Assembly (NCBI GenBank): GCA_903813345.2
Contig: CAIIXF020000002.1
Coordinates: 10,994,150 to 11,058,149, forward strand
Length of the DNA stretch: 64,000 nucleotides
Reading direction: 5' to 3'
From: Owenia fusiformis
Lineage: Eukaryota; Annelida; Polychaeta; Sabellida; Oweniidae
Shown: positions 42,246 to 64,000 of the stretch, piece after piece
Position numbering within the stretch: the stretch's first letter is position 1
How the letters are laid out: every line of letters starts with the position of its first letter
Made by a program: the position numbers and the translations under genes
Notes under the pieces: model-generated
The model's database searches: none
What the model was told of the DNA's origin: nothing
The model's input: only the letters and a program-made list of their open reading frames with translations

Positions 42246-44655
42246 CACAGGCTGGTATCGAAAAATTTGTCCGCTGTGACGGAGCGTGCTATTTTGCATA
42301 GAATCACTAGGAAATCCACACAATTTATTTTTTTACTCATATGTTTTGCTATATCAAAGAACATTACTGACTCCATGCAATGAATATATCATTTGCGGGT
42401 AACTTTAAATTCTGTTTGAAATCCAACAACGCTATGAGTAAAAGCTATTGAAAACGGCGCCGGAGTATCATACTCCAAAATGTACCATTTCTTTTATTTC
42501 TTTTTAATGGTACAATATAGCGACACGATAATATTTACATATGTTTTCAGCATAACTCTGAAGGTATTAATGAGATCTTTATGTATTGGGTATTTTTAAA
42601 TTTTTTGATAAAAATGATAATTAATTTTTTTGTCCGCTGTGACGGAGCAGTTTCAAATCTGAAATGCGTTAGGAGCGAGCGTGTCAAATCTCTCTTTCGT
42701 AAAGTATTCTAAAAAATGAAACGTAACAAAAGTACACATTTCAAATTCTGAGATGAATATACGACCACTCTTTAAGCTTCTTTTCTCAGTTTGTACTGCA
42801 ATCCAACTTATGCATGGTAATCATGAAAATTATAGTCAACTTCCATTTCAGTGAAGGGTATTTGCCTTTCGTAGTGCCCTCTGTGGATCCATCGGCCTGA
42901 CATGGTCATTTTTTAAGGTAACTTAATTATTTGAAGTAAAATGATTTATGAAGCTAAATACATTTAATGGTATGGACTGTGGATTGTTCTACCCTCTTTA
43001 GTCGTTCCAAAAGGTAAGTTGAATGTATCTTGAAATATGAAAATGCAAAATTTGATTTTAAGATCGTTCTTTATTTGACTAAGAGTTATGACTATCTGAT
43101 GCAACTACAGTAAAATATATGTACAGTGAATACATATGGAGCCCAAAAATGTGTTCCCACTAGATGTTCACTCCATAGAGGCAATTTCATACAGAAGTCA
43201 GAGGAATATTTGATAAGAAGAGGTATTCACTAGAGGCCCTAGAGAAAGATATTCATTGATACAGGTTTTACAGTGCAGCACGTTTACAAAGACTTTTTTT
43301 TATAATTTTATTCTATGAAAAACGATGAATTTCAAATAATAACAAATTAAATCTGTATTGGGATCATCTTATATACAGTAATATAATATTATGTGGTAAA
43401 AGGTTATACATCTGTCGGAATGCATGATGTATGTGCGCTATTTCGAATAAGTAAATTCATATTAGCCCTATTTACACTACACGTGACATTTCAAAACGTC
43501 TAGGCGAAAACGTATTAGAAATATTATGTTGAGTTTACATCATGTTGATTCATGTTGATTTCAGTACAAACCTCCAAAAATGCTAAGAGTGGTCGTTTTT
43601 ATATCTCAGATTTACATTACCCCATATCTCCAAGAGGCTGCTTGTCATTATTTAGGAAAGTGATTTGTGACGTTCTCTCTTCTAAAGCCCGGTAAACACC
43701 AATGGGGCAAGTTGGGACCTCCATAGACTTAACATTGCGTGGGACCTCGTGGGACCTTTTGGGATTTTGCCCCATGAAGTCCTTGGGACTCCATGGGACT
43801 CCGTGGGATTTTGCCCCATCTTGCCCCATCGAGTCCCACGAGGTCCCATGAAGTCCCACGTGGGACTCGATGGGGCAAGATGGGGCAAAATCCCACTAAG
43901 TCCCATGGAGTCCCATCGAGAATGAACATGTTCATTCTTTCCATGGGGCATCGTGGGATTTTCGATCATATGACGTGTTGTGTGAAGCCCGACATACACC
44001 AATGGGGCACAGTGGGATTTGATGGGACTCCATGGGACTTGATGGGACTCCATGGGGCACGATGGGACAAAGTCATCAAGGTCCCATGGGACTTCGTGGG
44101 ATTCGATGGGGCAAATTGGGATTCGATGGGGCAAGATGGGACTCGATGGGGCAAGTGGGATTTTGCCCCATTGGTGTATACCGGGCTTAAGGGTACTTTT
44201 AAAATATATAATTTGAATCTTAAATTCTTAACGTAGTTCACAGTTAAAACTGCTCCGTCACAGCTGACAAAAAATGTAAACATTATTTTTTATAAAAAAT
44301 ATTAAAAATACCCAATACATCAAGATATCATTAATACCTTCAGAGTTATGCTGAAAACATATGTAAATATTATCGTGTCACTATATTGTACCATTAAAAA
44401 GAAATAAAAGAAATGGTACATTTTGGAGTATGATACCCCGGCGCCGTTTTCAATAGCTTTTACTCTTAGCGTTGTTTGACTTCAAACAAAAGTTAAAATT
44501 ACCCGCAAATGATATACCCATTGCATGGAGGAAGACATTTTCTTTGGTATAGCGAAACATATGAGTAAAAAAATAAATTGTGTGGGTTTCTTAGTGTTTC
44601 TATGCAAAATAGCACGCTCCGTCACAGGGGACAAATTTTTCGATACCAGCCTGTG
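42246..44655. mobile_element. 2.41-kb element with ~400-bp inverted repeats
   Basis: The left arm (42246-42653) and the right arm (44246-44655) mirror each other from CACAGGCTGGTATCG, with only scattered differences. The direct repeat ATTAT flanks the ends (42241-42245 and 44656-44660), a likely 5-bp target duplication. Each arm begins and ends with the phrase GTCC-CTGTGACGGAGC, a second-level direct repeat. The ~1.6-kb centre encodes nothing recognisable and holds a nested minisatellite element. Confidence 0.85.
43685..44188. mobile_element. Nested element built of GGGACT/ATGGGGCAA minisatellite
   Basis: Ends AAGCCCGGTAAACACCAAT and ATTGGTGTATACCGGGCTT are inverted repeats. Inside, 9-18 bp words such as CATGGGACT, GATGGGGCAAGATGGGA and GGGATTTTGCCCCAT repeat in both orientations. 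A second internal end-like sequence (AAGCCCGACATACACCAAT) at 43986 suggests two joined copies. Long open frames on both strands here come from the repeat period being a multiple of three and should not be read as proteins. Confidence 0.65.
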
Positions 44656-46375: not shown

Positions 46376-46697
46376 AGGAGGCCCCAACGGGGGGCCTCCT
46401 ATTAATTTTATAGATATTATTATTAGGAGGCCCTCCTGAAAGGGCCTCCTATAGCTTTTGTAGCTTTTCTTTATTCTTATTCTTTATTCTTATTAGGAGG
46501 GCCTCTATAGCTTTTGTAGCTTTTCTTTATTTCTTTATTTCTTTCTTTATTAGGAGGCCCTCCTGAAAGGGCCTCCTATAGCTTTTGTAGGTTTTCTTTA
46601 TTTATTCTTATAAGGAGGCCCCATCGGGGGGCCTCCTATCAATTTTGTAGATATTATTATTCTTTATTATTAGGAGGCCCTCCTGAAAGGGCCTCCT
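46376..46697. mobile_element. Stack of six family-G Helentron-like 5' ends
   Basis: Six copies of a 5' palindrome built on GGAGGCCC/GGGCCTCC start at 46376, 46425, 46495 (right half lost), 46552, 46613 and 46672. Each is followed by 20-40 bp (for example ATAGCTTTTGTAGCTTTTC) and a TTATT-rich tract, then the next copy. Two subtypes exist: palindrome loop CCTCCTGAAAGG with downstream ATAGCTTTTG (copies 2, 3, 4, 6), and loop CCCAACGGGG or CCCATCGGGG with downstream AT(T/C)AATTTT (copies 1, 5). These look like the starts of six elements, each interrupted near its beginning by the next. Confidence 0.8.
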
Positions 46698-46753
46698 ATA
46701 GCTTTTGTAGCTTTTCTTTATTCTTTATTCTTATTCTTTATTCTTTATTTATT

Positions 46754-46891
46754 AGACTCCAGATGAAAATCTGGAGTCTATTGCTTTTGCCAGTTTTCTT
46801 TATTATTATTAGACTCCAGATGAAAATCTGGAGTCTATTGCTTTCGTCAGTTTTCTTTATTATTAGACTCCAGATTGAAAATCTGGAGTCT
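46754..46891. mobile_element. Stack of three family-A Helentron-like 5' ends
   Basis: Three copies of the palindrome AGACTCCAGAT-GAAA-ATCTGGAGTCT start at 46754, 46811 and 46865, each followed by ATTG(C/T)TTT..CC/G..GTTTTCTTTATTATT. They continue the series of family-G starts directly to the left. The third runs uninterrupted into its own body. Confidence 0.8.
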
Positions 46892-48645
46892 ATTGTTTTT
46901 GCCTGTTTTCTTTATTATTATTATTATTATTCTTTTTTCTTCCTCCTCGCCAAAGTTCTCGTCAACTATAACAGCTTACTTAATCCAACTAACATGGTTA
47001 ACTAAGGACTGTATCCGGCTTTCTGGGAAATTAGGTCAACTTTTTATCTAGGTCAAAGGTCAAGAACTAGGTCACAATATTGTGTTTTCACTTTTTTGCC
47101 AGTTTTCTCAGTCGTCATTCAGTATTTTCGCTCCTGTTTTTTTTCATCATGTTCCTTTGAAAAAACGCTAATTCCGAAAGGCAAATCGTTTTTTGATTAC
47201 TCTTACCGATTTTGAGATATATGGCGTCCGAAAAGTAGGTCAGAACAGCAAGTTCTCCAAATTCAACATATGAATTATAAAATAAGTGTAGAATTTTCTC
47301 AGGAATCTGAATCTGCAAACCAAATTTCGATCAGACTTCCGGTTCGGAAGTTATGGCGTTTTGAAAGCTCAAAAATAGCTAAATTTGTGCCCCATGTTAA
47401 GTCGATGGGAAAAAAGATTTTTTTGAAGTGTAATATACGAGATATAGACTGAGTACAGCTTAATATAATGATAGCCCTTAAAAGAAGGGGACCTAAAAAG
47501 CCAACTAGCTTCAAAATCTGGACAGCAAAATGCCTAGGTCAAAATCTAGGTCAAATTCATAGTTTTTCCTTATTTTTGTGATTCTGACACTACATTTTAA
47601 TGATTTGCTTCAAAATTTTGTATACAGGTAGCAAAGAGTGTGCTAATAGTGTGAGCCTTTTGCCGTCAGAAAGTATTTTGACCCACTTTTGAGATATGGT
47701 GTCCGAAAAGTAGGTCAAAATAAAAAATTCTCCAAATTCAACGTATGAGTTATGAATTAAGGGTAGAATTTTCCCAGGAATCCGAATCTGCAAACCAAAT
47801 TTCGATCTGACTACTGGTTCGGAAGTTATGGCGTGTCCAAAAAGTAGGTCAAAATAAAAAAAAATCCAAGTTTAACGTATGAGTTATGAATTAGGGGTAG
47901 AATTTTTTCAGGAATCCGAATCTGCAAACTAAATTTCGATCCGACTTCCGGTTCGAAAGTTATGGCATTTTGAAAGCTCAAAAATCGCTAAAATTGGTGC
48001 CCCACGTTATGGCAATGGGAAAAACGATTTTTTTTGAAGTGTAAATTACGAGATATAGACTAAGTACAGCTTCAAATAATGAAAGCCTATAAAAGAAACG
48101 GACCTCAAAAGCTATCTAGCTTCAAAATTTGGACACCAAAATGCCTAGGTCAAAATCTAGGTCAAATTTATAGTTTTAACTTATTTTTTAGATTCTGACG
48201 CTACACTCTAATTATTTGCTTCAAAATTTTGTATACAGGTAGCAAAAAGTGAGTTAATAGTGTTAGCCTTTTGCCGTCAGAAAGTATTTTGACCGACTTT
48301 TGAGATATGGTGTCCGAAAAGTAGGTCAAAATAAAAAGTTCTCAAAATTTAAAGTATGAGTAATGAATTAAGGGTAGAATTTCCTCAGGAATCCGAATCT
48401 TTAAACCAAATTTCAATCCAACTTCTGGTTAGATAGTTATATCGGTTTGAAGTCTCGAAAAGTCGATCTGATGATATCTCCATGTTAAGCCAATGGAGTC
48501 GAAGATAACATTCTTAAGAGTCGTCTCAATGTCTATATTCTAGATGACTCAGCTTATTCTGGATGACTCAGCTTACAAGTTTTCTGGATGACTCAGCTTT
48601 AAAATCTGGAGTCTTAAATTGAACTTGTTCAATTTACATGTCTAG
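46865..48645 (+). mobile_element. Helentron-like element A3, innermost, complete (1.78 kb)
   Basis: Starts with the GACTCC palindrome and a (TTA)n tract. Its body begins CTTCCTCCTCGCC, with ATCTAGGTCAAAGGTCAAGA soon after. It contains three ~480-bp units, each with TTTTGAGATAT, CCGAATCTGCAAACCAAATT and GGAAGTTATGG. The 3' end has ATCTGGAGTC (half of the 5' palindrome), the hairpin TTGAACTTGTTCAA and CTAG. An asymmetric terminal inverted repeat, a 3' hairpin and a CTAG end, with no protein, fit a non-autonomous Helitron/Helentron. Confidence 0.75.
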
Positions 48646-51084
48646 TTATTATTATTATTATTATTCTTTCAGAATCTTCCTCCTTCCCAGATTTCTCACC
48701 AACTAAAAGAATTTACTTTAAGCTGCTTACATGATCAACTAGGGGCAGTACCTGGGATGATGGGAAATTAGGTCAAATTTTTATCTAGGTCAAGGGTCAA
48801 GAACTAGGTCAAATCAAGGTCAAATCAACATTCTGTCAATTATCTTCGTTGTTGTTTGTCGTAACTACTTCATCTTAGTTTTTTCATGTAGCTTAGAAAA
48901 AAACAAATCGAGAGTGTGCCATCCGTTTTTTGATTACTCTTAGCGATTTTGAGATATGGCGTCCTGAAAGTAGGTCAAAACCAAAAAGTTCTCCAAATTT
49001 AACATATGAGCTATGAAATAAGGGTAGAATTTTCTCAGGAATCCGAATCTGCAAACCAAATTTTGATCCGACTTCCCGTTCGGAAGTTATGGCGTTTTGA
49101 AAGCTCAAAAATCGCTAAATTTGGTGCCCATGTTAAGTCAATGGGAAAAAAGATTTTTTTGAAGTGAAAAATACGAAATATAGACTGAGTTCAGCTAAAT
49201 ATAACGAAAGCTTTTAAAAGAAGGGGACCTCACAAGCCATCTAGCTTCAAAATTTGGACACCAAAATGCCTAGGTCAAAATCTAGGTCAAATTCAAAGTT
49301 TTTCCTTATTTTTGCGATTCTGACACAACAGATTAATTATATTCTTCGAAATTTTGTATACATGTAGCTAAGAGTCTGCTAATAGTGTTAGCCTTTTGCC
49401 GTCAGAAAGTATTTTGCCCCATTTTTGAGATATGGTGTCCGAAAAGTAGGTCAAAATAATTTTTTTTCAAAATTTGACATTTGAGTTATGAATTAAGTAT
49501 AGAATTTTCTCAGGAATCCGAATCTGCAAACCAAATTTCGATCCGACTTCCGGTTTGGAAGTTATGGCGTGTCCGAAAAGTAGGTCAAAATAAAAAGTTT
49601 CCAAATTTAACGTATGAGCTATGAATTAAGGATAGAATTTTCTCTGGAATCCAAATCTGCAAACCAAATTTCGATCCGACTTCCGGTTCGGAAGTTATGG
49701 CGTTTTGAAAGCTCAAAAATCGCTAAATTTGGTGCCCCATGTTATGTCAATGGGAAAAAATATTTTTTTGAAGTGTAAAATACGAGATATAGACTAAGTA
49801 CAGCTAAACATAATGGAAGCCCATAAAAGAAGGGGACCTCAAAACCTTCTAATTTTGAAAATGTGGACAACAAAATGCCTAGGTCAAAATCTAGGTCAAA
49901 TTCAAAGCTTTTCCTTATTTTTGCGATTCTGACACTACACTTTAATTATATTCTTCGAAATTGTGTATACATGTAGCCAAGAGTGTGCTTATAGTGTTAG
50001 CCTTTTGCCGTCAAAAAGTATTTTGACCCACTTTTGAGATATGGTGTCCCAAAAGTAGGTCAAAATAAAAAAAATCTTCAAATGTAACGTATGAGTTATG
50101 AATAAGGGGTAGAATTTTATCAGGAATCCGAATCTGCAAATCAAATTTTGATTTGACCTCCTGTTCGGAAGTTATGGTGTTTTGAAAGCTCAAAAATCGC
50201 TAAATTTGCTGCCCCATGTTATGTCAATGGGAAAAAAGATTTTTTTGAAGTGTAAAATACGAGATATAGACTGAGTACAGCTTAATATAATGAAAGCCTA
50301 TTAAAGAAGGGGACCTCGAAGGCTACTTAGCTCCAAAATTTGGACACCAAAATGCCTAGGTCAAAATCTAGGTCAAATTTATAGTTTTCCCTTATTTTTG
50401 CGATTCTGACACTATATTTAAATGATTTGCTTTAAGATTTTGTATACAGGTAGCAAAGAGTATGCTAATAGTGTTAGCGTTTTGCCGTCAGAAAGTATTT
50501 TGACCCACCTTTGAGATATGGTGTCCGAAAAGTAGGCCAAAGTTAAAAGTTTTCCAAATTTAACGTATGAGTTATGAATTAAGGGTAGAATTTTCTCAGA
50601 AATCTAGATCTGCAAACCAAATTTCGATCCGACTACTTGTTCTGAAGTTATGGCGTTTTGAAATCTCAAAAATCGCTAAATTTGGTGCCCAATGTTAAAT
50701 CAATGGGACCGAATAATTTTTTGAAGTATAAAAATACGAGATATAGAATGAGTACAGCTAAACATAATGAAAGCCCATAGAAGAAGGGGACCTCAAAAGC
50801 TGCTTTCCTTCAAAGTTTGGACACCAAAATACCTAGTTCAAAATCTAGGTCAAATTCATAGTTTTTTTTTATTTTGCGATTCTGACACTACACTTCAATG
50901 ATATTCTCCGAAATTTTGTATACTTGTAGCAAAGAGTGTGCTAATAATGTTAACATTTTGTCGTCAATATGTTTTTTGACCCACTTTTGAGATATGGTGT
51001 CCGAAATGTAGGTCAAAATAAAAAGTTCCCCAATTTTAAAGTATGAGTTATGAATTAGGGGTAGAATTTCCTCAGGAATCCGGA

Positions 51085-54046
51085 GGGTGTCTACAAAACT
51101 AAGACCTAAGACCTACAAAACTAAGACCCCCACGTAATAAAACTAAGACCCTGTTATAAAACTAAGACCCCCACGTTATAAAACTAAGACCCTGTTATAA
51201 AACTAAGACCCCCCACGTAATAAAACTAAGACCCTGTTATAAAACTAAGACCCTCCACGTAATAAAACTAAGACCCTGTTATAAAACTAAGACCCCCCAC
51301 GTAATAAAACTAAGACCCTGTTATAAAACTAAGACCCCCTACGTTATAAAACTAAGACCCTGTTATAATACTAAGACCCCCCACGTAATAAAACTAAGAC
51401 CCTGTTATAAAACTAAGACCCCCCACGTTATAAAACTAAGACCCTGTTATAAAACTAAGACCCTCCACGTAATAAAACTAAGACCCTCCACGTAATAAAA
51501 CTAAGACCCTGTTATAAAACTAAGACCCCCCACGTTATAAAACTAAGACCCTGTTATAAAACTAAGACCCCCCACGTAATAAAACTAAGACCCTGTTATA
51601 AAACTAAGACCCCCCACGTAATAAAACTAAGACCCTGTTATAAAACTAAGACCCTCCACGTAATAAAACTAAGACCCTGTTATAAAACTAAGACCCCCAC
51701 GTTATAAAACTAAGACCCTGTTATAAAACTAAGACCCCCCACGTAATAAAACTAAGACCCTGTTATAAAACTAAGACCCCCCACGTTATAAAACTAAGAC
51801 CCCCCACGTTATAAAACTAAGACCCTGTTATAAAACTAAGACCCCCCACGTAATAAAACTAAGACCCTGATATAAAACTAAGACCCCCCACGTAATAAAA
51901 CTAAGACCCTGTTATAAAACTAAGACCCTCCACGTAATAAAACTAAGACCCTGTTATAAAACTAAGACCCCCCACGTTATAAAACTAAGACCCTGTTATA
52001 AAACTAAGACCCCCACGTTATAAAACTAAGACACTGTTACAAAACTAAGACCCCCACGTAATAAAACTAAGACACTGTTACAAAACTAAGACCCCCACGT
52101 AATAAAACTAAGACCCTGTTATAAAACTAAGACCCCCCAGAATATTTTGAATTTTTCAGAAAATGTGTCCAACATATTGCTCTAAATGATAGGAACTTTG
52201 AAATTTTGATTAAATTTCTAGAAATAGTCTAGAGAAAAAATGAAAAAAAATGAAAAAAATGATTTGAAAAGAGGTCTATTTTCCTTTTTCTGACCACAAT
52301 TTTTGTTTCAGACAATTTTTCTTATTTTCAAAGCTCCTATCATTTGAAGCAATATATTGGGCATATTTTCTGAAAAATCAAAATATTATGTTCAGTGACC
52401 TTACCGATACCCTTACTTTTAACTTTTTTTAGTCACATTTTCAGAGGGCTGAAAAACCATTTCAGCATGGTTAGGGTCATTTTGACATGACCATTGTGAT
52501 CCTGGTCATGTAAATGATAAATGGGAGTAGTAAAAATGACTGAAGATCAAAGCAGAACTCTGCTATCTTAGTTCAAAAAATCTAAAATCACATGGTTTTT
52601 TCATTTCCTGTTTGGTGTAAATTTCGAATAACTTCTCCAAGACCTTAAGCTTATCTTTATATCTATATCTATAAGACTATCTTTTGTAGAATCTGTATGT
52701 TACTGGGGAACACATGTGCCAGAGGCAAGACTACCTCGCGAGCAGAGCAAGGCACGGTGATTGATTCTTAGTTTTATAACAGGGTCTTAGTTTTATAACA
52801 GGGTCTTAGTTTTACAACGTGGGGGGTCTTAGTTTTATAACAGGGTCTTAGTTTTATAACGTGGGGGGTCTTAGTTTTATAACAGGGTCTTAGTTTTATT
52901 ACGTGGGGGGTCTTAGTTTTATAACAGGGTCTTAGTTTTATAACGTGGGGGGTCTTAGTTTTATAACAGGGTCTTAGTTTTATTACGTGGAGGGTCTTAG
53001 TTTTATAACAGGGTCTTAGTTTTATTACGTGGGGGGTCTTAGTTTTATAACAGGGTCTTAGTTTTATTACGTGGGGGGTCTTAGTTTTATAACAGGGTCT
53101 TAGTTTTATAACGTGGGGGGTCTTAGTTTTATAACGTGGGGGGTCTTAGTTTTATAACAGGGTCTTAGTTTTATTATGTGGGGGGTCTTAGTTTTATAAC
53201 AGGGTCTTAGTTTTATAACGTGGGGGTCTTAGTTTTATAACAGGGTCTTAGTTTTATTACGTGGAGGGTCTTAGTTTTATAACAGGGTCTTAGTTTTATT
53301 ACGTGGGGGGTCTTAGTTTTATAACAGGGTCTTAGTTTTATTACGTGGGGGGTCTTAGTTTTATAACAGGGTCTTAGTTTTATAACGTGGGGGGTCTTAG
53401 TTTTATAACAGGGTCTTAGTTTTATTACGTGGAGGGTCTTAGTTTTATTACGTGGAGGGTCTTAGTTTTATAACAGGGTCTTAGTTTTATAACGTGGGGG
53501 GTCTTAGTTTTATAACAGGGTCCTAGTTTTATTACGTGGGGGGTCTTAGTATTATAACAGGGTCTTAGTTTTATAACGTATGGGGTCTTAGTTTTATAAC
53601 AGGGTCTTAGTTTTATTACGTGGAGGGTCTTAGTTTTATAACAGGGTCTTAGTTTTATAACGTGGGGGGTCTTAGTTTTATAACAGGGTCTTAGTTTTAT
53701 TACACGGGGGGTCTTAGTTTTATAACAGGGTCTTAGTTTTATAACGTGGGGGGTCTTAGTTTTATAACAGGGTCTTAGTTTTATAACGTGGGGGGTCTTA
53801 GTTTTATAACAGGGTCTTAGTTTTATTACGTGGGCGGTCTTAGTTTTATAACAGGGTCTTAGTTTTATAACGTGGGGGTCTTAGTTTTATAACAGGGTCT
53901 TAGTTTTATTACATGGGGGGTCTTAGTTTTATAACAGGGTCTTAGTCTTATAACGTGGGGGGTCTTAGTTTTATAACAGGGTCTTAGTTTTATTACGTGG
54001 GGGGTCTTAGTTTTGTAGGTCTTAGGTCTTAGTTTTGTAGACACCC
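51085..54046. mobile_element. 2.96-kb foldback (TU/FB-like) element inside A2
   Basis: Termini GGGTGTCTACAAAACTAAG and its reverse complement, flanked by the perfect 10-bp direct repeat GGAATCCGGA (51075-51084 and 54047-54056). The arms (51085-52137 and 52766-54046) consist of alternating 19- and 22-bp subunits, TAAAACTAAGACCCTGTTA and TAAAACTAAGACCCCCCACG plus TA/TT, about 25 and 30 pairs. The 628-bp centre holds a copy of repeat family R (52260-52640). No transposase frame exists. Long inverted arms made of short tandem repeats are the hallmark of Drosophila FB and sea-urchin TU elements. The uninterrupted target is preserved in A1 near 56271. Confidence 0.9.
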
Positions 54047-54184
54047 GGAATCCGGATCTGAAATCAAAATTGCAATCCGACCCCCGGTTTAGATTCTACG
54101 CCATTTTGAAGTTTGAAATTCGCACTTGCCAGTATTCACGATGCAGATTGATCAAATATACTTTCAAAAATTCCTGCATACCCT

Positions 54185-54415
54185 ACTTTACCTCTCTACC
54201 TACTCAGCTACTTATTTGACTACTTACTCAACTACTTAATTAGTTATTTCTTACTTAGCAACTTACTCAGCTACTAACTCAGGTACTTACTCAGCTACTT
54301 ACTCAGCTACCTACTCAGCTTTTTACTCAGTTACTTACTCAGCTACTTACTCAACGACTACTAAGGTACTTACTCAGCTAATTACTCAGTTACTTACTCA
54401 GCTCTTTACTGATCA
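54185..54415. repeat. 12-bp minisatellite CTACTTACTCAG
   Basis: About 18 degenerate copies of (AG)CTACTTACTC near the 3' end of A2. The same array recurs at 56410-56637 near the 3' end of A1, so it is part of the element family. A3 lacks it. An internal short tandem array close to the 3' end is common in Helentron-derived elements. Confidence 0.75.
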
Positions 54416-57400
54416 ATCTAGGTCAAATAAATCTGGAGTCTTAAATTGAACTTGTTCAATTTCACAAATCTAGTTATTCTTCCTCTTCCTCCTTCCCAGA
54501 TTTCTCACCAACTAGAAGAGCTTACTTTAAGCTGCTTACATGATTAACTAGGGAATGTATCTGGGATGATGGGAAATTAGGTCAAATTTTTATCTAGGTC
54601 AAAGGTCAAGAACTAGGTCAAATCCAGTACTTTGTCACTTTTTCCCATTATCTCGGTCGTCCTTCAATATTTTTGATCCTGGTTTTTTTCATTGTGTTCC
54701 TCATAAAAAAGTAGAAAACCTAGGGTCGATTTAGTTTTTTGGTATCTCAAACCGATTTCGAGATATCAGTGTCCGAAAACGAGGTCCAAAAAAAATTTCA
54801 CCGAATCCAATGTCCAGGATATCAGTCTTATAGAAAATTATCTCAGGATTCCGAATCTGAAAACCAAATTTCGATCTGACTTCCGGTTCAGAAGTTATGG
54901 CGTTTTGAAAATTCAAAAATCGCTAAATTTGGTGCCCCATGTTAATTCAATGGGAAAAAATATTTTTTTGAAGTGTAAAATACGAGATATAGACTAAGCA
55001 CAGCTTAACATAATGGAAGCCCATAAAAGAAAGGGACCACAAGACCTTCTTTTCATAAAAATTTGGACACCAAAATGCCTAGGTAAAAATCTAGGTCAAA
55101 TTCAAAGTTTTTCCTTAATTTTGCGATTCTGACACTACAGATTATTTATATTCTTCGAAAATTTGTATACATGTAGCCAAGAGTGTGCTAATAGTGTTAG
55201 CCTTTTGCCGTCAGAAAGTATTTTGACCCACTTTTGAGATATGGTGTCCGAAAAGTAGGTCAAACTAAAAAGTTCTCCAAATGTAACGTATGAGTTATGA
55301 ATTAAGGGTAGAATTTTATCAGGAATCCGAATCTGCAAACCAAATTTCAATCCGACTTTTGGTTTGGAATTTATGTCGTTTTGATAGCTCAAAAATCGCT
55401 AAATTTGGTGCCCCATGTTATGTCAATGGGAAAAAAGATTTTTTTGAAGTGTAAAATACGAGATATAGACTGAGTACAGCTTAATATAATGAAACCCTGT
55501 TAAAGAAGGGGACCTTGAAGGCTACTTAGCTCCAAAATTTGGACACCAAAATGCCTAGGTCAAAATCTAGGTCAAATTTATAGTTTTCCCTTATTTTTGC
55601 GATTCTGACACTATATTTAAATGATTTGCTTTAAAATTTTGTATACAGGTAGCAAAGAGTATGCTAATAGTGTTAGCGTTTTGCCGTCAGAAAGTATTTT
55701 GACCCACTTTTGAGATACGGTGTCCGAAAAGTAGGCCAAAGTTAAAAGTTTTCCAAATTTAACGTATGAGTTATGAATTAAGGGCAGAATTTTCTCAGAA
55801 ATCTAGATCTGCAAACTAAATTTCGATCCGACTACTTGTTCTGAAGTTATGGCGTTTTGAAATCTCAAAAATCGCTAAATTTGGTGCCCCATGTTAAATC
55901 AATGGGACCGAATAATTTTTTGAAGTATAAAAATACGAGATATAGAATGAGTACAGCTAAACATAATGAAAGCCCATAGAAGAAGGGGACCTCAAAAGCT
56001 ACTTTCCTTCAAAGTTTGGACACCAAAATACCTAGTTCAGAATCTAGGTCAAATTCATAGTTTTTTTTATTTTGCGATTCTGACACTACACTTTAATGAT
56101 ATTCTCCGAAATTTTGTAAACTTGTAGCAAAGAGTGTGCTAATAATGTTAACATTTTGCCGTCAATAAGTTTTTTGACCCACTTTTGAGATATGGTGTCC
56201 GAAATGTAGGTCAAAATAAAAAGTTCTCCAATTTTAAAGTATGAGTTATGAATTAGGGGTAGAATTTCCCCAGGAATCTGGATCTGAAATTAAAATTGCA
56301 ATCCGACCCCCGGTTTAGATTCTACGCCATTTTGAAGTTTGAAATTCGCACTTGCCAGTATTCACGATGCAGATTGATCAAATATACTTTCAAAAATTCC
56401 TGCATACCCTACTTTACCTCTCTACCTACTCAGCTACTTATTTGACTACTTACTCAATTACTTAATTAGTTATTACTTCCTTTGCAACTTACTCAGCTAC
56501 TAACTCAGGTACTTACTCAGCTACTTACTCAGCTACCTACTCAGCTTTTTACTCAGTTACTTACTCAGCTACTTACTCAACTACTACTAAGGTACTTACT
56601 CAGCTAATTACTCAGTTACTTACTCAGCTCTTTACTGATCTATCTAGGTCAAATAAATCTGGAGTCTTAAATTGAACTTGTTCAATTTCACAAATCTAGT
56701 TATTCTTCCAAAGCATTTTTCTCCTACTTCCAACTAGCTTTCAACTACCTACTATATGATCCTACTAGGAACCTTGTCTGGAATAGGGGGGAAAATATTT
56801 TTTATCTAGGTCAAGGTCAAAGGTCAAAATCTAGGTCAAATCTAAGTTTTTTTTCAAGTTTCTCAAGTTTGTCATTATACTTCATTATTTCTTGCGATGA
56901 ATTTAACTGAAACTACATTTAAGTATTCTCTACAAATTGTTCACTATATGTCAGCATTAAATTTTTACCGTTTTTGAGATATTTGACGTCAAAAAACGGT
57001 CAAAAAAGGTCATTTTTCAACTTGCTTCAATCTGACCAAATTTTTTTTACAAATCATCTACAAGTTCCCAGGAGTCCAAATCTGACCTCAGATTTGACCT
57101 TTGACCTTCGGTTGACCTTCAGTGACCTCCGAAAGGTCAAAAAAGTTGATTTTTCAAATCGATTTTCTGGATTCAAATTTAGGTATATCTATTCACAAAA
57201 GACCTTCTGAGGTCTAAAAAAGTAAAATTTGCAAGGTCAAAGGTCAAGGTCATCAAACGAAATCACAAACTGTGTTTTCTAAGTTTCTCAAAATTGGAGA
57301 CTACAAATCAATTTTTTTTACTGAAAGTCAGAATATATATTCCTCTAAAGGCTCTACACATATTAGCAATTGACTATTTATTAAAATTTTGCTCCAGTTT

Positions 57401-60400
57401 TGAGATATTAGAACTCAAAAACTGAAAAATGGTCAAATTTCGAAATTTTTGAGGGTCAAATTTCAACTTGCTCTAAATTGACCAAACTTTTTTTTAAAAA
57501 GCATCTACAAGATCTCAGGAACTCAAATCTGACCTTAGTTTTGACCTATGACCTTTAGTTGACCTTCAGTGACCTTCGAAAGGTCAGAAAAGTTGATTTT
57601 TCATATTGAGTCTTTGGATTCAAATTTAGGTCAGTCTAATTACAAAAAGCCTACTGAGGTCTCAAAAAGTAAAAATTTCAAGGTCAAAGGTCAAGGTCAT
57701 CAAATTAGGTCACAAACTGTGCTATCTAAGTTTCTCATACTTCAAGACTTCAAATCAATATTTTTAATTGAAAGTCAAGATATACTTTTCTCTAAGGGTT
57801 CTACACATATTAGTCATTGACTATTTATTAAAATTTTGTCCCACTTTTGAGATATAAGAGCTCAAAAACTGAAAAAGGTCATTTTTTCAAAGTTTATAAG
57901 GTCAAATTTTAACTTCCTTCAAATTCACCCAACTTTTTTTAAAAAATCATCTTCAACTTCTCAGGAGTTCATATTTAACCTCAGATTTGACATTTGACCT
58001 TTAGTTGACCTTCAGTGACCTTTGAAATGTCAGAAAAGTTGATTTTTCAAATTGAGTTTTTGGACTCAAATTTAGGGTAGGCCTAATCAAAAAAAAACTA
58101 CTGAGCTCTAGAATAGTAAAATTTTCAAGGTCAAGGGTCACGGTTATCAAATTAGGTCAAAGGTCAAGATCTAGGTCAAATCTAATTTTTTTTCAAGTTT
58201 TTTAACTTTGTCCTTATACTTCGTTATTTCTTGCGATGAATTAAACTGAAACTACATTTTGGTATTCTCTATAAATTCTTCACTATATGTCAGCATTAAA
58301 TTTTTACCGTTTTTGAGATATTTGACGTAAAAAAACGGTCAAAAAAGGTCATTTTTCAACTTGCTTCAATCTGACCAAATTTTTTTTATAACTCATCTAC
58401 AAGTTCCCAGGAGTCCAAATCTGACCTCAGATTTGACCTTTGAACTTTAATTGACCTTCAATGACCTTTGAAAGGTAAGAAAAGTTGATTTTTTAAATTG
58501 AGTCTTTGGATTCAAATTTAGGTCAGCTTAATTACAAAAGTCCTACTGAGGTCTGAAAAAGTAAAACTTTTCAAAGTCAAAGGTCAAGATCATGAAATTA
58601 GGTCACAAACTGTGCTATCTAAGTTTCGCAAAGTTCGACTACAAACCAATATTTTTAATCCTGAGTCGAAATAAACACATTCCTCTAAGGGTTGTACACA
58701 TATTAGCAATTGACTATCTAATTGAATTTTGTCCCAGTTTGAGATATAAGAGTTCAAAAGTTGAAAAAAGGTCAATTTCGAAATCTTTCAAGGTCAAATT
58801 TAAACTCGCTTCAAATTGACAAAATCTTTTTTTGAAAATCATCTACAAGTTTTCAGGAGTACACATCTGACCTCAGATTTGATATTTGTCCTTTAGTTGA
58901 CCTTCAAATTGTCAAAAATGCCTAAGAGGGCCTCCGTGAGATTGCTTGCAATCTTCAAAAGTCTAGTTATTATTTATTCTTCCTCCCTCTTTTTCTCCTA
59001 CTTCCGACTAACTTTCAACTAGCTACTACATAGTCCTACTAGGGACCTGGGCTGAACTTGGCGGGAAAGGAATTTTTATCTAGGTCAAGGTCAAAGGTCA
59101 AAATCTAGGTCAAATCTAAGCTTTTTTTAAGTTTCTCAGATTTCTTCCTCATACTTCATTATTTCTTGCGATGAATTAAAATGTAACTAGATATAAGCAT
59201 TCTCTACAAATTGCTCACTATATGTAAGCGTTAATTTTTTACCGTTTTTGAGATATTTGACGTCAAAAATCGGCAAAAATCAGTCATTTTTCAACTTGCT
59301 TCAAATGAACCAGATTTTTTTTAAAAATCATCTACAAGATCTCAGGAACTCAAATATGTCCTTACTTTTGACCTCCGACCTTTGGTTGACCTTCGGTGAC
59401 CTTCGAAAGGTAAAAAAAGTTGTTTTTTCAAATTGATTTTCTGGATTCAAATTTAGGTATATTTGATCACAAAGGACCCACTGAGGTCTAAAAAAGTAAA
59501 ATTTGCAAGGTCAAAGGTCAAGGTCATCAAACTAAATCACAAACTGTGTTTTCTAAGTTTCTCAAAATTGGAGACTACAAATCAATATTTTTTCATGAAA
59601 GTCAGGATATATATTCCTCTATAGGTTCTACACATATTAGCAATTGACTATTTATTAAAATTGTGTACCAGTTTTGAGATATTGGAACTCAAAAACTGAA
59701 AAAAGGTCAAATTTCGAAACTTTTCAAGACTAAATTTCAACTTGCTTCAAATTGACCAATTTTTTTTTTAAAACTCATCTACAAGTTCTCAGGATTCCAA
59801 ATCTAACCTTACTTTTGACCTTTGACCTTTGGTTGACCTTCAGTGACCTCCGAAAGGTCAAAAAGTTGATTTTTCAAATCGATTTTCTGGATTCAAATTT
59901 ACGTATATTTATTCACAAAAGACCTTCTGAGGTCTAAAAAAGTAAAATTTGCAAGGTCAAAGGTCAAGGTCATCAAACGAAATCACAAACTGTGTTTTCT
60001 AAGTTTCTCAGAGTTGGGGACTACAAATCAATTTTTTTTACTGAAAGTCAGAATATATATTCCTCTAAAGGTTCTACACATATTAGCAAATGACTATTTA
60101 TTAAAATTTTGCTCCAGTTTTGAGATATTAGAACTCAAAAACTGAAAAAAGGTCAAATTTCGAAATTTTTCAAGGTCAAATTTCAACTTGCTCTAAATTG
60201 ACCAAACTTTTTTTTAAAAAAGCATCTACAAGTTGTCTGGAGTTCATATATGACCTTGTATTAGAGATTTGACCTTTGGCTGGCCTTTGAATGTTCAGAA
60301 ACGAATATAGGGCCTCCGTAAGATTGCTTGCAATCTTAGATCGTTAGATCTCTAGTTATTCTTATTCTATCAAAGCATTTTTCTCCTACTTCCAACTAGC

Positions 60401-62682
60401 TTTCAACTACTTACTATATGCTCCTACTAGGAACCTCGGCTGAAATTGGGGGGAAATAAATTTTTATCTAGGTCAAGGTCAAAGGTCAAATCTAGGTCAA
60501 ATCTAAGTTTTTTTCAAGTTTCTCAAATCCTGACACTACACTTCATTATTTTTGACTGAATTTTTGCATACAGATAGATATTAGTATTCTATTAGTCTTA
60601 GCCTTTTGCCGTCTGGATAAATTTTGCCTAGATTTTGAGATATTGAAGGTCAAAAAAGGTCAAAAAAGGTCTTTTTTCAACTTGCTTCAAATTGACCAAT
60701 TTTTTTTTTAAAACTCATCTACAAATTCTCAGAATTCCAAATCTGACCTTACTTTTGACCTTTGACCTTTCGTTGACCTTCAGTGACCTCCGAAAGGTCA
60801 AAAAAGTTGATTTTTCAAATCGATTTTCTGGATTCAAATTTCGGTATATTTATTCACAAAAGACCTTCTGAGGTCTAAAAAGTAAAATTTGCAAGGTCAA
60901 AGGTCAAGGTCATCAAACGAAATCATAAACTGTGTTTTCTAAGTTTCTCAAAATTGGAGACTACAAATCAATTTTTTTTACTGAAAGTCAGAATATATAT
61001 TCCTCTAAAGGTTCTACATATATTAGCAATTGACTATTTATTAAAATTTTGCTCAGTCAGAATATATATTCCTCTAAAGGTTCTACATATATTAGCAATT
61101 GACTATTTATTAAAATTTTGCTCCAGTTTTGAGATATTAGAACTCAAAAACTGAAAAAAGGTCAAATTTCGAAATTTTTAAAGGTCAAATTTCAACTTGC
61201 TCTAAATTGAGCAAACTCTTTTTTAAAAAGCATCTACAAGATCTCAGGAACTCAAATCTGACCTTAGTTTTGACCTATGACCTTTAGTTGACCTTCAGTG
61301 ACCTTCGAAAGGTCAAAAAATTGATTTTTCAAATTGATTTTTTGAATTCAAATTTAGGTTTATTCAATCAGAAAAGATATACTGAGGTCTAAAAAAGTAA
61401 AATTTTCAAGGTCAAAGGTCAAGGTCATCAAACAAGATCACAAACTGTGTTTTCTAAATTTCTCGAAGTTTTTGACTACAAATCAATATTTTTAATTGAA
61501 AGTCAAGATATACATTCCTCTAAGGGTTCTACACATATTAGCTATTGACTATTTTTAAAAATTTTGTCCCAGTTTTGAGATATAAGAGCTCAAAAACTGA
61601 AAAAGGTCAATTTTTCAAAGTTTATAAGGTCAAATTTTAACTTTCTTCACATTCACCCAACTTTTTTCTAAAAATCATCTACAACTTCTCAGGAGTTCAT
61701 ATATAACCTCAGATTTGACATTTGACCTTTAGTTGACCTTCAGTGACCTTCGAAAGGTCAGAAAAGTTGATTTTTCAAATTGAGTTTTTGGATTCAAATT
61801 TAGGGTTAGCCTGATAATAAAATACCTACTGAGCTCTAAAGCAGTAAAATTTTCAAGGTCAAGGGTCACGGTTATCAAATTAGGTCAAAGGTCAAAATCT
61901 AGGTCAAATCTAAATTTTTTTCAAGTTTCTCAAGTTTGTCCTTATACTTCATTATTTCTTGCGATGAATTAAACTGAAACTACATTTTAGTATTCTCTAC
62001 AAATTGTTCACAATATGTCAGCATTAAATTTTTACCATTTTTGAGATATTTTACGTCAAAAACGGTCAAAAAAGGTCATTTTTCAACTTGCTTCAATCCG
62101 ACCAAATTTTTTTTTTAAATCATCTACAATTATCTAGGAGTCCAAATCTGACCTCAGATTTAACCTTTGACCTTTAGTTGACCTTCAATGACCTTCGAAA
62201 GGTAAAAAAAATTGAGTCTTCGGATTCAAATTTAGGTCAGCCTAATTACAAAAGACCTACTGAGGTCTAAAAAAGTAAAACTTTTCAGGGTCAAAGGTCA
62301 AGATCATGGAATTAGGTCACAAACTGTGCTATCTAAGTTTCGCAAAGTTCGAGACTACAAACCAATATTTTTAATCCGAAGTCGAAATATACACATTCCT
62401 CTAAGGGTTCTACACATATTAGCAATTGACTATCTAATGGAATTTTGTCCCACTTTGAGATATAAGAGTTCAAAAGCTGAAAAAAGGTCAATTTTGAAAT
62501 TTTTCAAGGTCAAATTTAAACTCGCTTCAAATTGACAAATTTTTTTTTTGAAAATCATCTACAAGTTCTCAGGAGTTCACATCTGACCTCAGATTTGATA
62601 TTTGTCCTTTAGTTGACCTTCAAATTGTCAAAAATGCCTAAGAGGGCCTCCGTGAGATTGCTTGCAATCTTCCAAAGTCTAG

Positions 62683-64000
62683 TTTATTTATTATTCTATC
62701 AAAGCAGTTTTCTCCTACTTTCAACTAGCTTTCAACTTTCTACTTTATGCTCCTACTAGATACCTGGTTTGATCTTGATGGGAAAATATTTCATATCTAG
62801 GTCAAGGTCAAAGGTCAAAATCTAGGTCAAATCTAAGTTTTTTTTCAAGTTTCTCAAGTTTGTCCTTATACTTCATTATTTCTTGCGATGAATTAAACTG
62901 AAACTACATTTAAGTATTCTCTACAAATCGTTCACTATATGTCAGCATTAAATTTTTACCGTTTTTGAGATATTTGACGTCAAAAAAGGTCATTTTTCAA
63001 CTTGCTTCAATCTGACCAAATTTTTTTTAAAAATCATCTACAAGTTCACAGGAGTCCAAATCTGACCTCAGATTTGACCTTTGACCTTTACTCGACCTTC
63101 AGTGACCTTCGAAATGTCAGAAAAGTTGATTTTTCAAATTGAGTCCTTGGATTCAAATTTAGGTCAGTCTAATTACAAAAAGCCTACTTAGGTCTAAAAA
63201 AGTAAAAATTTCAAGGTCAAAGGTCAAGGTCATCAAATTATGTCACAAACTCTGCTATCTAAGTTTCTCATAGTCCAAGACTACAAATCCATATTTTTAA
63301 TTGAAATTCAAGATATACATTTCTCTAAGGGTTCTACATGTATTAATCATTGACTATTTATTAAAATTTTGTCCCAGTTTTGAGATATAAGAGCTCAAAA
63401 ACTGTAAAAGGTCAATCTTTCAAAGTTTATAAGGTCAAATTTTAACTTGCTTCAAATTCACCCAACTTTTTTTTAAAAATCATCTACAACTTCTCAGGAG
63501 TTCATATTTACTCAGATTTGACATTTGACCTTTACTTGACCTTCAGTGACCTTCGGAAGGTCAGAAAAGTTGATTTTTCAAATTGAGTTTTTGGGTTTAA
63601 ATTTAGGATAAGCCTAATCATAAAAGACCCACTGAGCTCTAAAACAGTAAAATTTTCAAGGTCAAGGGTCACGGTTATCAAATTAGGTCAAAGGTCAGAA
63701 TCTAGGTCAAATCTGTATTTTTTTCAAGTTTCTCAACTTTGTCCTTATACTTCATTATTTCTTGCGATGAATTAAACTGAAACTCAGTTTAAGTATTTTC
63801 TACAAATTGTTCACTAGATGTCAGCATTAAATTTTTACCGTTTTTTAGATATTTGACGTCGAAAAAAGGTAAAAAAAGGTCATTTTTCAACTTGCTTCAA
63901 TCTGACCAATTTGTTTTTTAAAAATCATCTACAAGTTCTCAGGAGTTCAAATCTGACCTCAGATTTGATATTTGTCCTTTAGTTGACCTTCAAATTGTCA
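62683..64000 (+). mobile_element. Body of the next family-G element, cut by the window edge
   Basis: It opens TTATTCTATCAAAGCAGTTTTCTCC and repeats the G-type units. The last bases (GATATTTGTCCTTTAGTTGA and CCTTCAAATTGTCA) match the sequence that precedes GGGCCTCC by ~15-20 bp in G6 and G4. Its 3' end should therefore lie within about 60 bp of the window edge. Its start would be the degenerate palindrome at 46495. Confidence 0.65.

Follow-up and report, generated by a model that had tools for sequence, protein, structure and literature searches.

Rolling-circle elements of the HINE/Helentron type (DINE-1, HINE-Mo and Cg_HINE) share, in the accessible parts of their descriptions, a palindromic 5′ subterminal inverted repeat (subTIR), a 3′ subTIR about 40 bp from the end that is followed by a hairpin, a 5′ microsatellite, central tandem repeats, and insertion at TT in T-rich DNA without target duplication (PMC4067079, PMC7492417), and insertion at TT in T-rich DNA is given for Helentron-type elements as such (PMC4067079, in part). 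Insertion of such elements into their own kind is also on record. FoHeli elements of Fusarium oxysporum form clusters of 5′ termini that stem from duplicated 5′ stretches, typically of less than 200 bp, that have been explained by self-insertion, and three tandem copies in Metarhizium were read either as two 5′-end insertions or as rolling-circle replication of circular DNA (accessible text of PMC5148889). Nested copies have been put forward as intermediates on the way to multi-terminus Helitrons in maize (PMC3288121), a preference of Helitrons for insertion near other Helitrons has been reported (Yang & Bennetzen 2009, as cited in PMC12477314), and the nested long terminal repeat (LTR) elements of maize (PMC2773423) offer no closer parallel, each as far as the accessible text of these sources goes. 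Here we describe a nest of nine HINE/Helentron-like elements in the annelid Owenia fusiformis that was very probably built by nine successive insertions, as judged from its sequence. The nest is a real, unusually deep variant of the Helitron self-insertion that was already known.

The window is the whole 64,000-nucleotide stretch analyzed, C2:10994150-11058149 of a 498-Mb genome; the next 20 kb rightwards were added, and "extended" coordinates continue the window numbering. The nest spans 46376 to extended 66952 (20,577 bp) and has nine openings and nine closings. Its nine 5′ ends stand in a row from 46376 to about 46906, six of family A and then three of family G (letters as defined here, which may differ from those of a preliminary description of the window). 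The A-type 5′ ends (GGAGGCCC type) start at 46376, 46425, 46495, 46552, 46613, and 46672, and the G-type ends (GACTCC) start at 46754, 46811, and 46865. The 5′ hairpin is AGGAGGCCC..GGGCCTCCT in family A and AGACTCCAGAT..ATCTGGAGTCT in family G, and the sequence after the hairpin splits family A into subfamilies A1 (TATAGCTTTTGTAG) and A2 (AATTTTRTAGATATT and variants), such that the order of 5′ ends from outer to inner is A2 A1 A1 A1 A2 A1 G G G. The 3′ ends within the window lie at 48645, 54473, and 56699 (GGAGTC type) and then at 58966, 60355, and 62682 (GGGCCTCC type). Three more A-type 3′ ends were found in the right flank at extended 64052, 65722, and 66952 (L001:52, 1722, and 2952), and the 330 bp beyond the last of these match no reference body. 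The parts of the nest are as follows.

46376 to 46424, forward strand: 5′ end of element 1 (outermost, A2), hairpin and start of the T-rich tract; interrupted by element 2, body resuming at extended 65723-66952.
46425 to 46494, forward strand: 5′ stub of element 2 (A1), cut off by element 3 and continued in the body at extended 64053-65722.
46495 to 46551, forward strand: 5′ stub of element 3 (A1) with a truncated palindrome, cut off by element 4 and continued in the body from 62683 to extended 64052.
46552 to 46612, forward strand: 5′ stub of element 4 (A1), cut off by element 5 and continued in the body from 60356.
46613 to 46671, forward strand: 5′ stub of element 5 (A2), cut off by element 6 and continued in the body from 58967.
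46672 to 46753, forward strand: 5′ stub of element 6 (A1), cut off by element 7 and continued in the body from 56700.
46754 to 46810, forward strand: 5′ stub of element 7 (G), cut off by element 8 and continued in the body from 54474.
46811 to 46864, forward strand: 5′ stub of element 8 (G), cut off by element 9 and continued in the body from 48646.
46865 to 48645, forward strand: element 9 (innermost, G), uninterrupted, with 5′ hairpin, TTATT tract, body, 3′ subTIR, hairpin, and CTAG.
48646 to 54473, forward strand: body of element 8 (G), from its resumption to the 3′ end, with a foldback-like block at 51117-54017.
54474 to 56699, forward strand: body of element 7 (G), from its resumption to the 3′ end.
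56700 to 58966, forward strand: body of element 6 (A1), from its resumption to the 3′ end.
58967 to 60355, forward strand: body of element 5 (A2), from its resumption to the 3′ end.
60356 to 62682, forward strand: body of element 4 (A1), from its resumption to the 3′ end.
62683 to 64000, forward strand: resumed body of element 3 (A1), crossing the window edge with its 3′ end at extended 64052, after which elements 2 and 1 close.

Every end to which the preliminary description had given coordinates is present, and the further 3′ ends of predicted families that it expected in the right flank are the three A-type ends found there. Its row of nine 5′ palindromes holds in number and in the order of six and then three, with the reservation that the third (46495) is truncated, and its "at least nine" elements are nine and no more, with the stack closing at extended 66952. 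Eight of the 5′ ends are indeed interrupted in the T-rich tract, but at about 50-80 bp from their start and not at 30-60 bp (gaps between successive starts of 49, 70, 57, 61, 59, 82, 57, and 54 bp), and the ninth is uninterrupted. Similarly, CTAG is followed by TT at all nine 3′ ends but by TTATT, which had been claimed for every one of them, at only five.

Last-in-first-out (LIFO) pairing of the ends predicts both the family of each closing end and the family of the body that resumes after it. The 3′ ends were typed as G, A1 (GTGAGATTG), or A2 (GTAAGATTG); in hand-picked pairs of ends from isolated copies, a 3′ GTGAG goes with A1 (C1:11600542 with 11598730 and C1:46663701 with 46665537) and a 3′ GTAAG with A2 (C1:3683751 with 3682350 and C1:43771954 with 43773287). 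Bodies were assigned by blastn against unlinked copies only, using 56 A1, 7 A2, and 8 G references, with 2 interrupted copies of 9 A2 dropped and ten A1 loci that lie inside the tested loci left out. The LIFO prediction was right for 9 of 9 closing families and 8 of 8 resumed bodies in the focal nest, and what resumes after the ninth closing is outside sequence, an unrelated flank. There are 1260 possible orders for nine closing families (3 G, 4 A1, and 2 A2) and 420 for eight resumed bodies, and the order observed for closings and bodies is the mirror order. The earlier proposal that each new copy was inserted into the TTATT tract of the previous copy is supported: of the three outcomes named beforehand as speaking against it, the two that could be checked, a right flank lacking further 3′ ends and naturally tandem 5′ palindromes, were not observed.

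Local duplication would be expected to make nest-mates the best matches of the bodies, and the reverse was observed. Over the first 360 bp, the best match of all nine bodies was an unlinked copy (88.9 to 98.9 % identity), which outscored the best nest-mate by bit score in 9 of 9 cases, with a small margin for elements 3, 2, and 1 and in an uneven comparison of 100 unlinked copies with 8 nest-mates that favors the unlinked copies. As the nine bodies are closer to unlinked copies than to their nest-mates, we conclude that the comparison shows them to be insertions that arrived separately.

Sites of A1 insertion were read genome-wide from 97 of the 100 exact A1 5′ ends listed (148 were counted), representing 77 of 78 clusters with the focal cluster left out. 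A tandem duplication on C12, discussed below, supplies five of the 43 A1 ends found in tracts and five of the 116 A-in-A junctions also given below, and counts without it follow in brackets. Upstream of the 97 ends lay an A1 tract in 22 cases, an A2 tract in 19, a G tract in 2, a 3′ end directly in 13, and other sequence ("elsewhere") in 41 (17, 19, 2, 13, and 40 of 91), such that 43/97 (38/91) were in the 5′ tract of another copy. Downstream, 65 ends ran into an intact tract and body, 31 met another 5′ end first (26 A and 5 G), and 1 did otherwise (64 body, 21 A, 5 G, and 1 other of 91). Thus, un-nested copies exist in which a single 5′ palindrome runs into an intact tract and body, and the palindromes are not naturally tandem within one element, a point on which the preliminary description had staked its reading. 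Flanks of the "elsewhere" ends matched sampled element DNA in 2 of 41 cases, one in a body and one beside a truncated A end.

Most un-nested copies share one target word. We compared 56 un-nested left flanks, made up of 39 of the 41 "elsewhere" A1 ends, with L063 (in a body) and L041 (N) left out, and 17 A2 or G copies that were picked as isolated without a script. The flank reads TTATT in 44, TAATT in 6, and something similar in the rest, with T at −1 and −2 in 56 of 56 and A at −3 in 54 of 56. At L063, where the copy sits in a body, TTATT was part of the target on the left side, and the 3′ end of the inserted copy was not found. Tracts in un-nested flanks are 2-13 bp long, the elements' own 5′ tracts are 16-59 bp long in 76 of 77 copies, and an A1 tract holds five TTATT words on average; thus, single copies need one target word, while an A1 tract offers five. 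The density of TTATT over the first 46 kb of the window is about 2.9 per kb and strand. If all TTATT words of A elements were equally likely to be hit, finding 38 of 40 insertions in the tract would have a probability of about 5e-9, and the eight nested insertions of the focal nest, all in the tract, one of about 1e-4. The strong preference for an element's own 5′ tract that had been proposed is supported by these figures. We conclude that the distribution of copies shows the 5′ tract to be an insertion hotspot, with TTATT as the target.

The nest very probably grew as follows. The elements insert in one orientation at TTATT|TT and start with the 5′ hairpin. The tract directly inside this hairpin, mostly 16-59 bp long, consists of repeats of the target word (TTATT/TTCTT). 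Several landing sites would thus stand side by side in a resident copy, all within about 50-80 bp of the 5′ end, and the orientation of insertion would be set by the T-rich strand. A new copy entering the tract would separate a short 5′ stub of the resident from its body and would bring a fresh intact tract of its own, such that the next copy could repeat the process one level deeper. Successive insertion into the same tract would follow because the tract lines up the very sites at which the elements prefer to land. The steps of nicking, strand transfer, and replication are borrowed by analogy from the Helentron superfamily, and we infer a rolling-circle mechanism, a donor enzyme, and the order of events in time. 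Integration of a circle by recombination at the tract was set aside by reasoning only, as it predicts the order 5′-3′-5′-3′ and the order observed is 5′-5′-3′-3′.

Most junctions also join ends of one family. Junctions between two 5′ ends with a gap of 18-48 bases numbered 116 for A in A, 51 for G in A, 4 for A in G, and 1289 for G in G, an odds ratio of about 700, although short gap windows, exact patterns, and unequal tract lengths may distort these figures. There are about six G 5′ ends for every A 5′ end (at differing stringencies), such that if tracts alone decided, A insertions would lie mostly in the commoner G tracts, and they do not. We conclude that a same-family bias is likely, as read from these junctions. 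Two ordinary causes could give a same-family excess. The first is that composite elements or tandem duplication raise only same-family counts, which the 3′ end counts limit. The second is timing. Had G come after A, G would have hit A1 tracts as frequently as G tracts, but A1 tracts were hit by G in 5/91 cases (by A in 21/91, both without C12), compared with 1289 G-in-G junctions per 2630 G 5′ ends. Had A1 come after G, A1 would be expected in G tracts, where 2/91 were observed. Neither an A-first nor a G-first order alone gives both low cross-family counts.

Temporal succession, with A first and G later, was set aside as the only cause of the family matrix on two grounds that fall short of proof: the alternation of A and G at C1:43329900 and the relative identities of A1 and G. 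The median nearest-neighbor identity was 97.9 for A1, subsampled to the sample size of G, and 93.3 for G, a comparison that is confounded by the much higher fraction of A1 copies sampled. It dropped 7 of 66 A1, 1 of 27 G, and 1 of 7 A2 copies that had no 250-bp neighbor, and L116 as interrupted.

The alternative that survives best accepts the nest and denies homing: any TTATT-rich microsatellite would be hit, and the elements' own tracts would merely be the commonest ones. Nested and un-nested copies alike have TTATT as target, and several of the (TTA)n sites listed lie at element positions. Moreover, TTA/TTC-type tracts of at least 20 bp are scarce beside the nest, with 1 on both strands in 46 kb, and element tracts may therefore be a large share of all long tracts. 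Against this stands a family matrix that is far from independent, and timing alone cannot explain its deficit in both directions. We judge the absence of any own-family preference to fall just short of probable. Family-specific homing, by which an incoming copy would be steered to resident copies of its own family, is a possible reading on the doubtful side. Under homing, the family's enzyme might stay on the resident 5′ hairpin and deliver the new strand into the adjacent target array; each insertion would then renew the landing platform, and the family would grow as self-similar nests while sparing the rest of the genome. We know of no mechanism by which rolling-circle transposons are targeted by family identity, and the same-family bias, if real, would provide a testable case.

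Nests occur at other loci, as the search for further stacks proposed in the preliminary description revealed. Eight further loci, picked by choice from the listings and not at random, were read, and one of them was extended. A second complete nest, four deep and made of A2, is present at C1:20765400 (LIFO 4/4), and C5:40931000, which is cut at both ends, follows LIFO order in 2/2 resumptions. One opening is missing at each of C1:28549300 (2/4) and C4:15055600 (4/5). At C1:43329900, the word reads (A2 (G (A2 (A1 (A1 (A1 A) (G G) G) A) A) (G (G (G (G G) G) G) G) A) G) A), with A and G alternating by hand reading; strict LIFO holds for 5/10 with one G opening missing, and adding one opening by hand makes all ten fit. 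LIFO order held for 1/2 at C2:10678900, and no 3′ end was found at either C5:11609000 or C12:1566600. Among the first 100 exact G 5′ ends listed, 28 had a same-strand neighbor within 80 bp (0.02 expected at genome-wide density), and none had one on the opposite strand. The first 100 G-G junctions listed, all on C1, form chains of 2 (20 chains), 3 (18), 4 (6), 5 (4), and 6 (2) ends, and spacing was unequal in 11 of the 12 chains of at least 4 ends. We conclude that the focal nest is the deepest seen but not singular and that many smaller stacks exist elsewhere in the genome.

One way to obtain a cluster of 5′ ends in a single event is for a nest to form once and for the segment from its outermost 5′ end to its first 3′ end to be copied thereafter as a composite element. 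Composite elements have been described in Fusarium (PMC5148889), and multi-terminus elements derived from nested copies have been proposed in maize (PMC3288121), both according to partial text. The last block of C2:10678900 would suit this account, as it closes with three openings and one closing, and no further 3′ end was found in the next 2.5 kb. In the focal nest, however, 5′ and 3′ ends are equal in number and mirrored by family, and the nine matching 3′ ends refute a composite origin there. Genome-wide, family A has 409 5′ ends (exact arms) and 588 3′ ends (up to 3 mismatches), and family G has 2630 5′ ends and 3084 3′ ends (up to 2 mismatches each); 3′ ends are thus at least as many as 5′ ends in both families, although the patterns differ in length and stringency and the counts are not strictly comparable. 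We consider composite elements improbable as the source of the nest.

Tandem duplication or unequal exchange could instead have multiplied a 5′ unit of about 50-80 bp, with the bodies arranged by segmental duplication. Both kinds of repeat exist. Three A2 copies lie head to tail at an exact 2023-bp spacing inside one outer A2 copy (C2:10679393-10685449), and six A1 5′ units with an exact 77-bp spacing belong to a single 3′-truncated copy at C12:1566923-1567335, within locus C12:1566600. The latter cluster is clearly a product of tandem duplication and not of nesting, to judge by its exact units, and would be a minisatellite born from a transposon end. Accordingly, 5′ stacks can also grow by tandem duplication and lose units likewise, and the 5′ ends missing from three nests fit contraction by this route. 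In the focal nest, by contrast, the 5′ ends are of three kinds (A1, A2, and G) and unequally spaced, every body is closer to an unlinked copy than to a nest-mate, and unequal periods prevail in the G chains. Duplication is a very improbable origin for it. Equally improbable is an assembly artifact that collapsed or misordered repeat ends, for although such repeats are hard to assemble, like-patterned nests occur on C1, C4, and C5, a typed mirror order is unexpected from a random misjoin, and the 84 kb examined contain no N.

The elements themselves appear to be non-autonomous, non-coding, HINE/Helentron-like rolling-circle elements, judging by their termini. The 5′ hairpins start at the first base after TT, and the 3′ subTIR starts 39 bp before the end in A1 (58928-58966) and about 41 bp before it in G (48605-48645), in agreement with HINE subTIRs, which lie 2-4 nt from the 5′ terminus and 38-60 bp from the 3′ terminus. 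Hairpins are present upstream of CTAG, AGATTG-CTTG-CAATCT in A1 and TAAATTGAA-CTTG-TTCAATTTA in G, as expected of HINE 3′ hairpins at 8-35 bp from the terminus, and folding support for the 3′ ends of A2 and G is modest (z of about −2.3). The TT in all un-nested left flanks and after every CTAG of the nest agrees with HINE insertion at TT in T-rich DNA, as do the microsatellite, internal repeats of 445-477 bp, and lack of coding capacity with HINE structure; none of the window's nine open reading frames of 120 amino acids or more falls in the nest. Canonical Helitrons (Helitron1) have a 5′ TC, a 3′ CTRR, and insertion between A and T; here, the 3′ CTAG is present, but the start is AGGAGG/AGACTCC after TT and the junction is T|T. 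The shared subTIR arm is about 12 bp in G and about 8 bp in A, the latter below the 11-bp threshold for a family (PMC4067079, in part).

Candidate autonomous partners were sought among 58 genome-wide matches to Helitron_like_N, which include long Rep/helicase frames, several of them on small contigs. Three Rep/helicase loci were scanned with their flanks: L114/L115 (OTU, Rep, and PIF1), L136 (Rep and PIF1), and L138 (Rep, PIF1, and Exo_endo_phos), the last being a single copy that is split between two frames and, like Helentrons, carries an endonuclease domain. L114/L115 (C5:12401160-12410936) has a 3259-residue frame with OTU, DUF6570, Helitron_like_N, and PIF1 in the first 3113 residues, which were those scanned.

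Several observations weigh against a nest built by successive insertion, to which the uneven comparison of bodies and the C12 duplication also belong. Over the seven loci with 3′ ends, strict LIFO held for 27 of 36 testable resumptions, and for 18 of 27 at the six non-focal loci; 13 further resumptions, at which another 5′ end follows at once, stand outside this count. By hand reading, three loci are short of one 5′ end each and C2:10678900 has two extra. The pairing rests on family labels, such that insertions within one subfamily are indistinguishable, and the nest is known from assembled sequence alone. Folding of the A1 3′ end is barely above that of shuffles (z of −0.56), and no A- or G-type ends were present at the three Rep/helicase loci, where the flanks scanned were short on some sides.

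If built by successive insertion, nests act as a fossil record: the bracket-like pairing of their ends gives the order of insertion without recourse to sequence divergence, and they would provide a direct relative clock for the element families of one genome. An element could carry its own safe harbor, with a target-word array beside the 5′ hairpin drawing later copies into the element and diverting them from other DNA. For annotation, 5′ ends should be counted against 3′ ends, since a stack of 5′ stubs may pass for a minisatellite or, as happened at C12:1566600, turn into one.

Other features of the DNA were noted. The foldback-like block of element 8 (51117-54017) consists of two opposed blocks of 42-bp tandem repeats, with arms that are 99 % complementary over 847 nt and lie 891 nt apart. 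AGGTCA half-sites number 243 in the nest (11.8 per kb, versus 0.46 in the rest of the window and the right flank), and 48 direct repeats of AGGTCA with a spacing of 0-5 were found within the nest and none outside; these resemble nuclear-receptor sites in sequence. A 230-amino-acid open frame at 12596-13288 matches DDE_Tnp_1_7 (PF13843, E of 1.8e-48), which we take to be a piggyBac-type transposase, and short tandem arrays of 10/20-bp units (TGGGACTTGA-like) lie at 44013-44162 within frames open on both strands.

Self-insertion at the 5′ end, then, was already in print (PMC5148889 and PMC3288121, in part), and the novelty claimed for this growth mode shrinks to its depth, its frequency, and the link to the element's own microsatellite. 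We found no nest of such depth and no target-array tract reused by its own copies in the literature searched, which mostly did not extend to subscription journals. In the oyster, GTCY, GTCC, or GTCK microsatellites are given for 6 of 11 HINEs and are not the TT target (PMC7492417), whereas the microsatellite of the Owenia elements is an array of the target word; the accessible HINE descriptions contain no nested stacks (PMC4067079, PMC7492417). A self-carried target array and repeated use of one 5′ position are likewise absent from the accessible accounts of the maize Helitrons and of Helitron insertion near Helitrons (PMC3288121, PMC12477314). Head-to-tail arrays of bat and silkworm Helitrons are clusters of whole copies, as at C2:10679393-10685449, and bypass of the termination signal has been proposed for them, giving the order 5′-3′-5′-3′ (PMC4067079, in part) and not the 5′-5′-3′-3′ of the focal nest. 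Finally, some FoHeli elements have several 5′ termini with one 3′ terminus (PMC5148889, in part), a surplus that is matched by the last block of C2:10678900 (3 versus 1) but not by the focal nest (9 and 9), in which every opening is paired with a closing of its own in mirrored sequence, nine levels deep.

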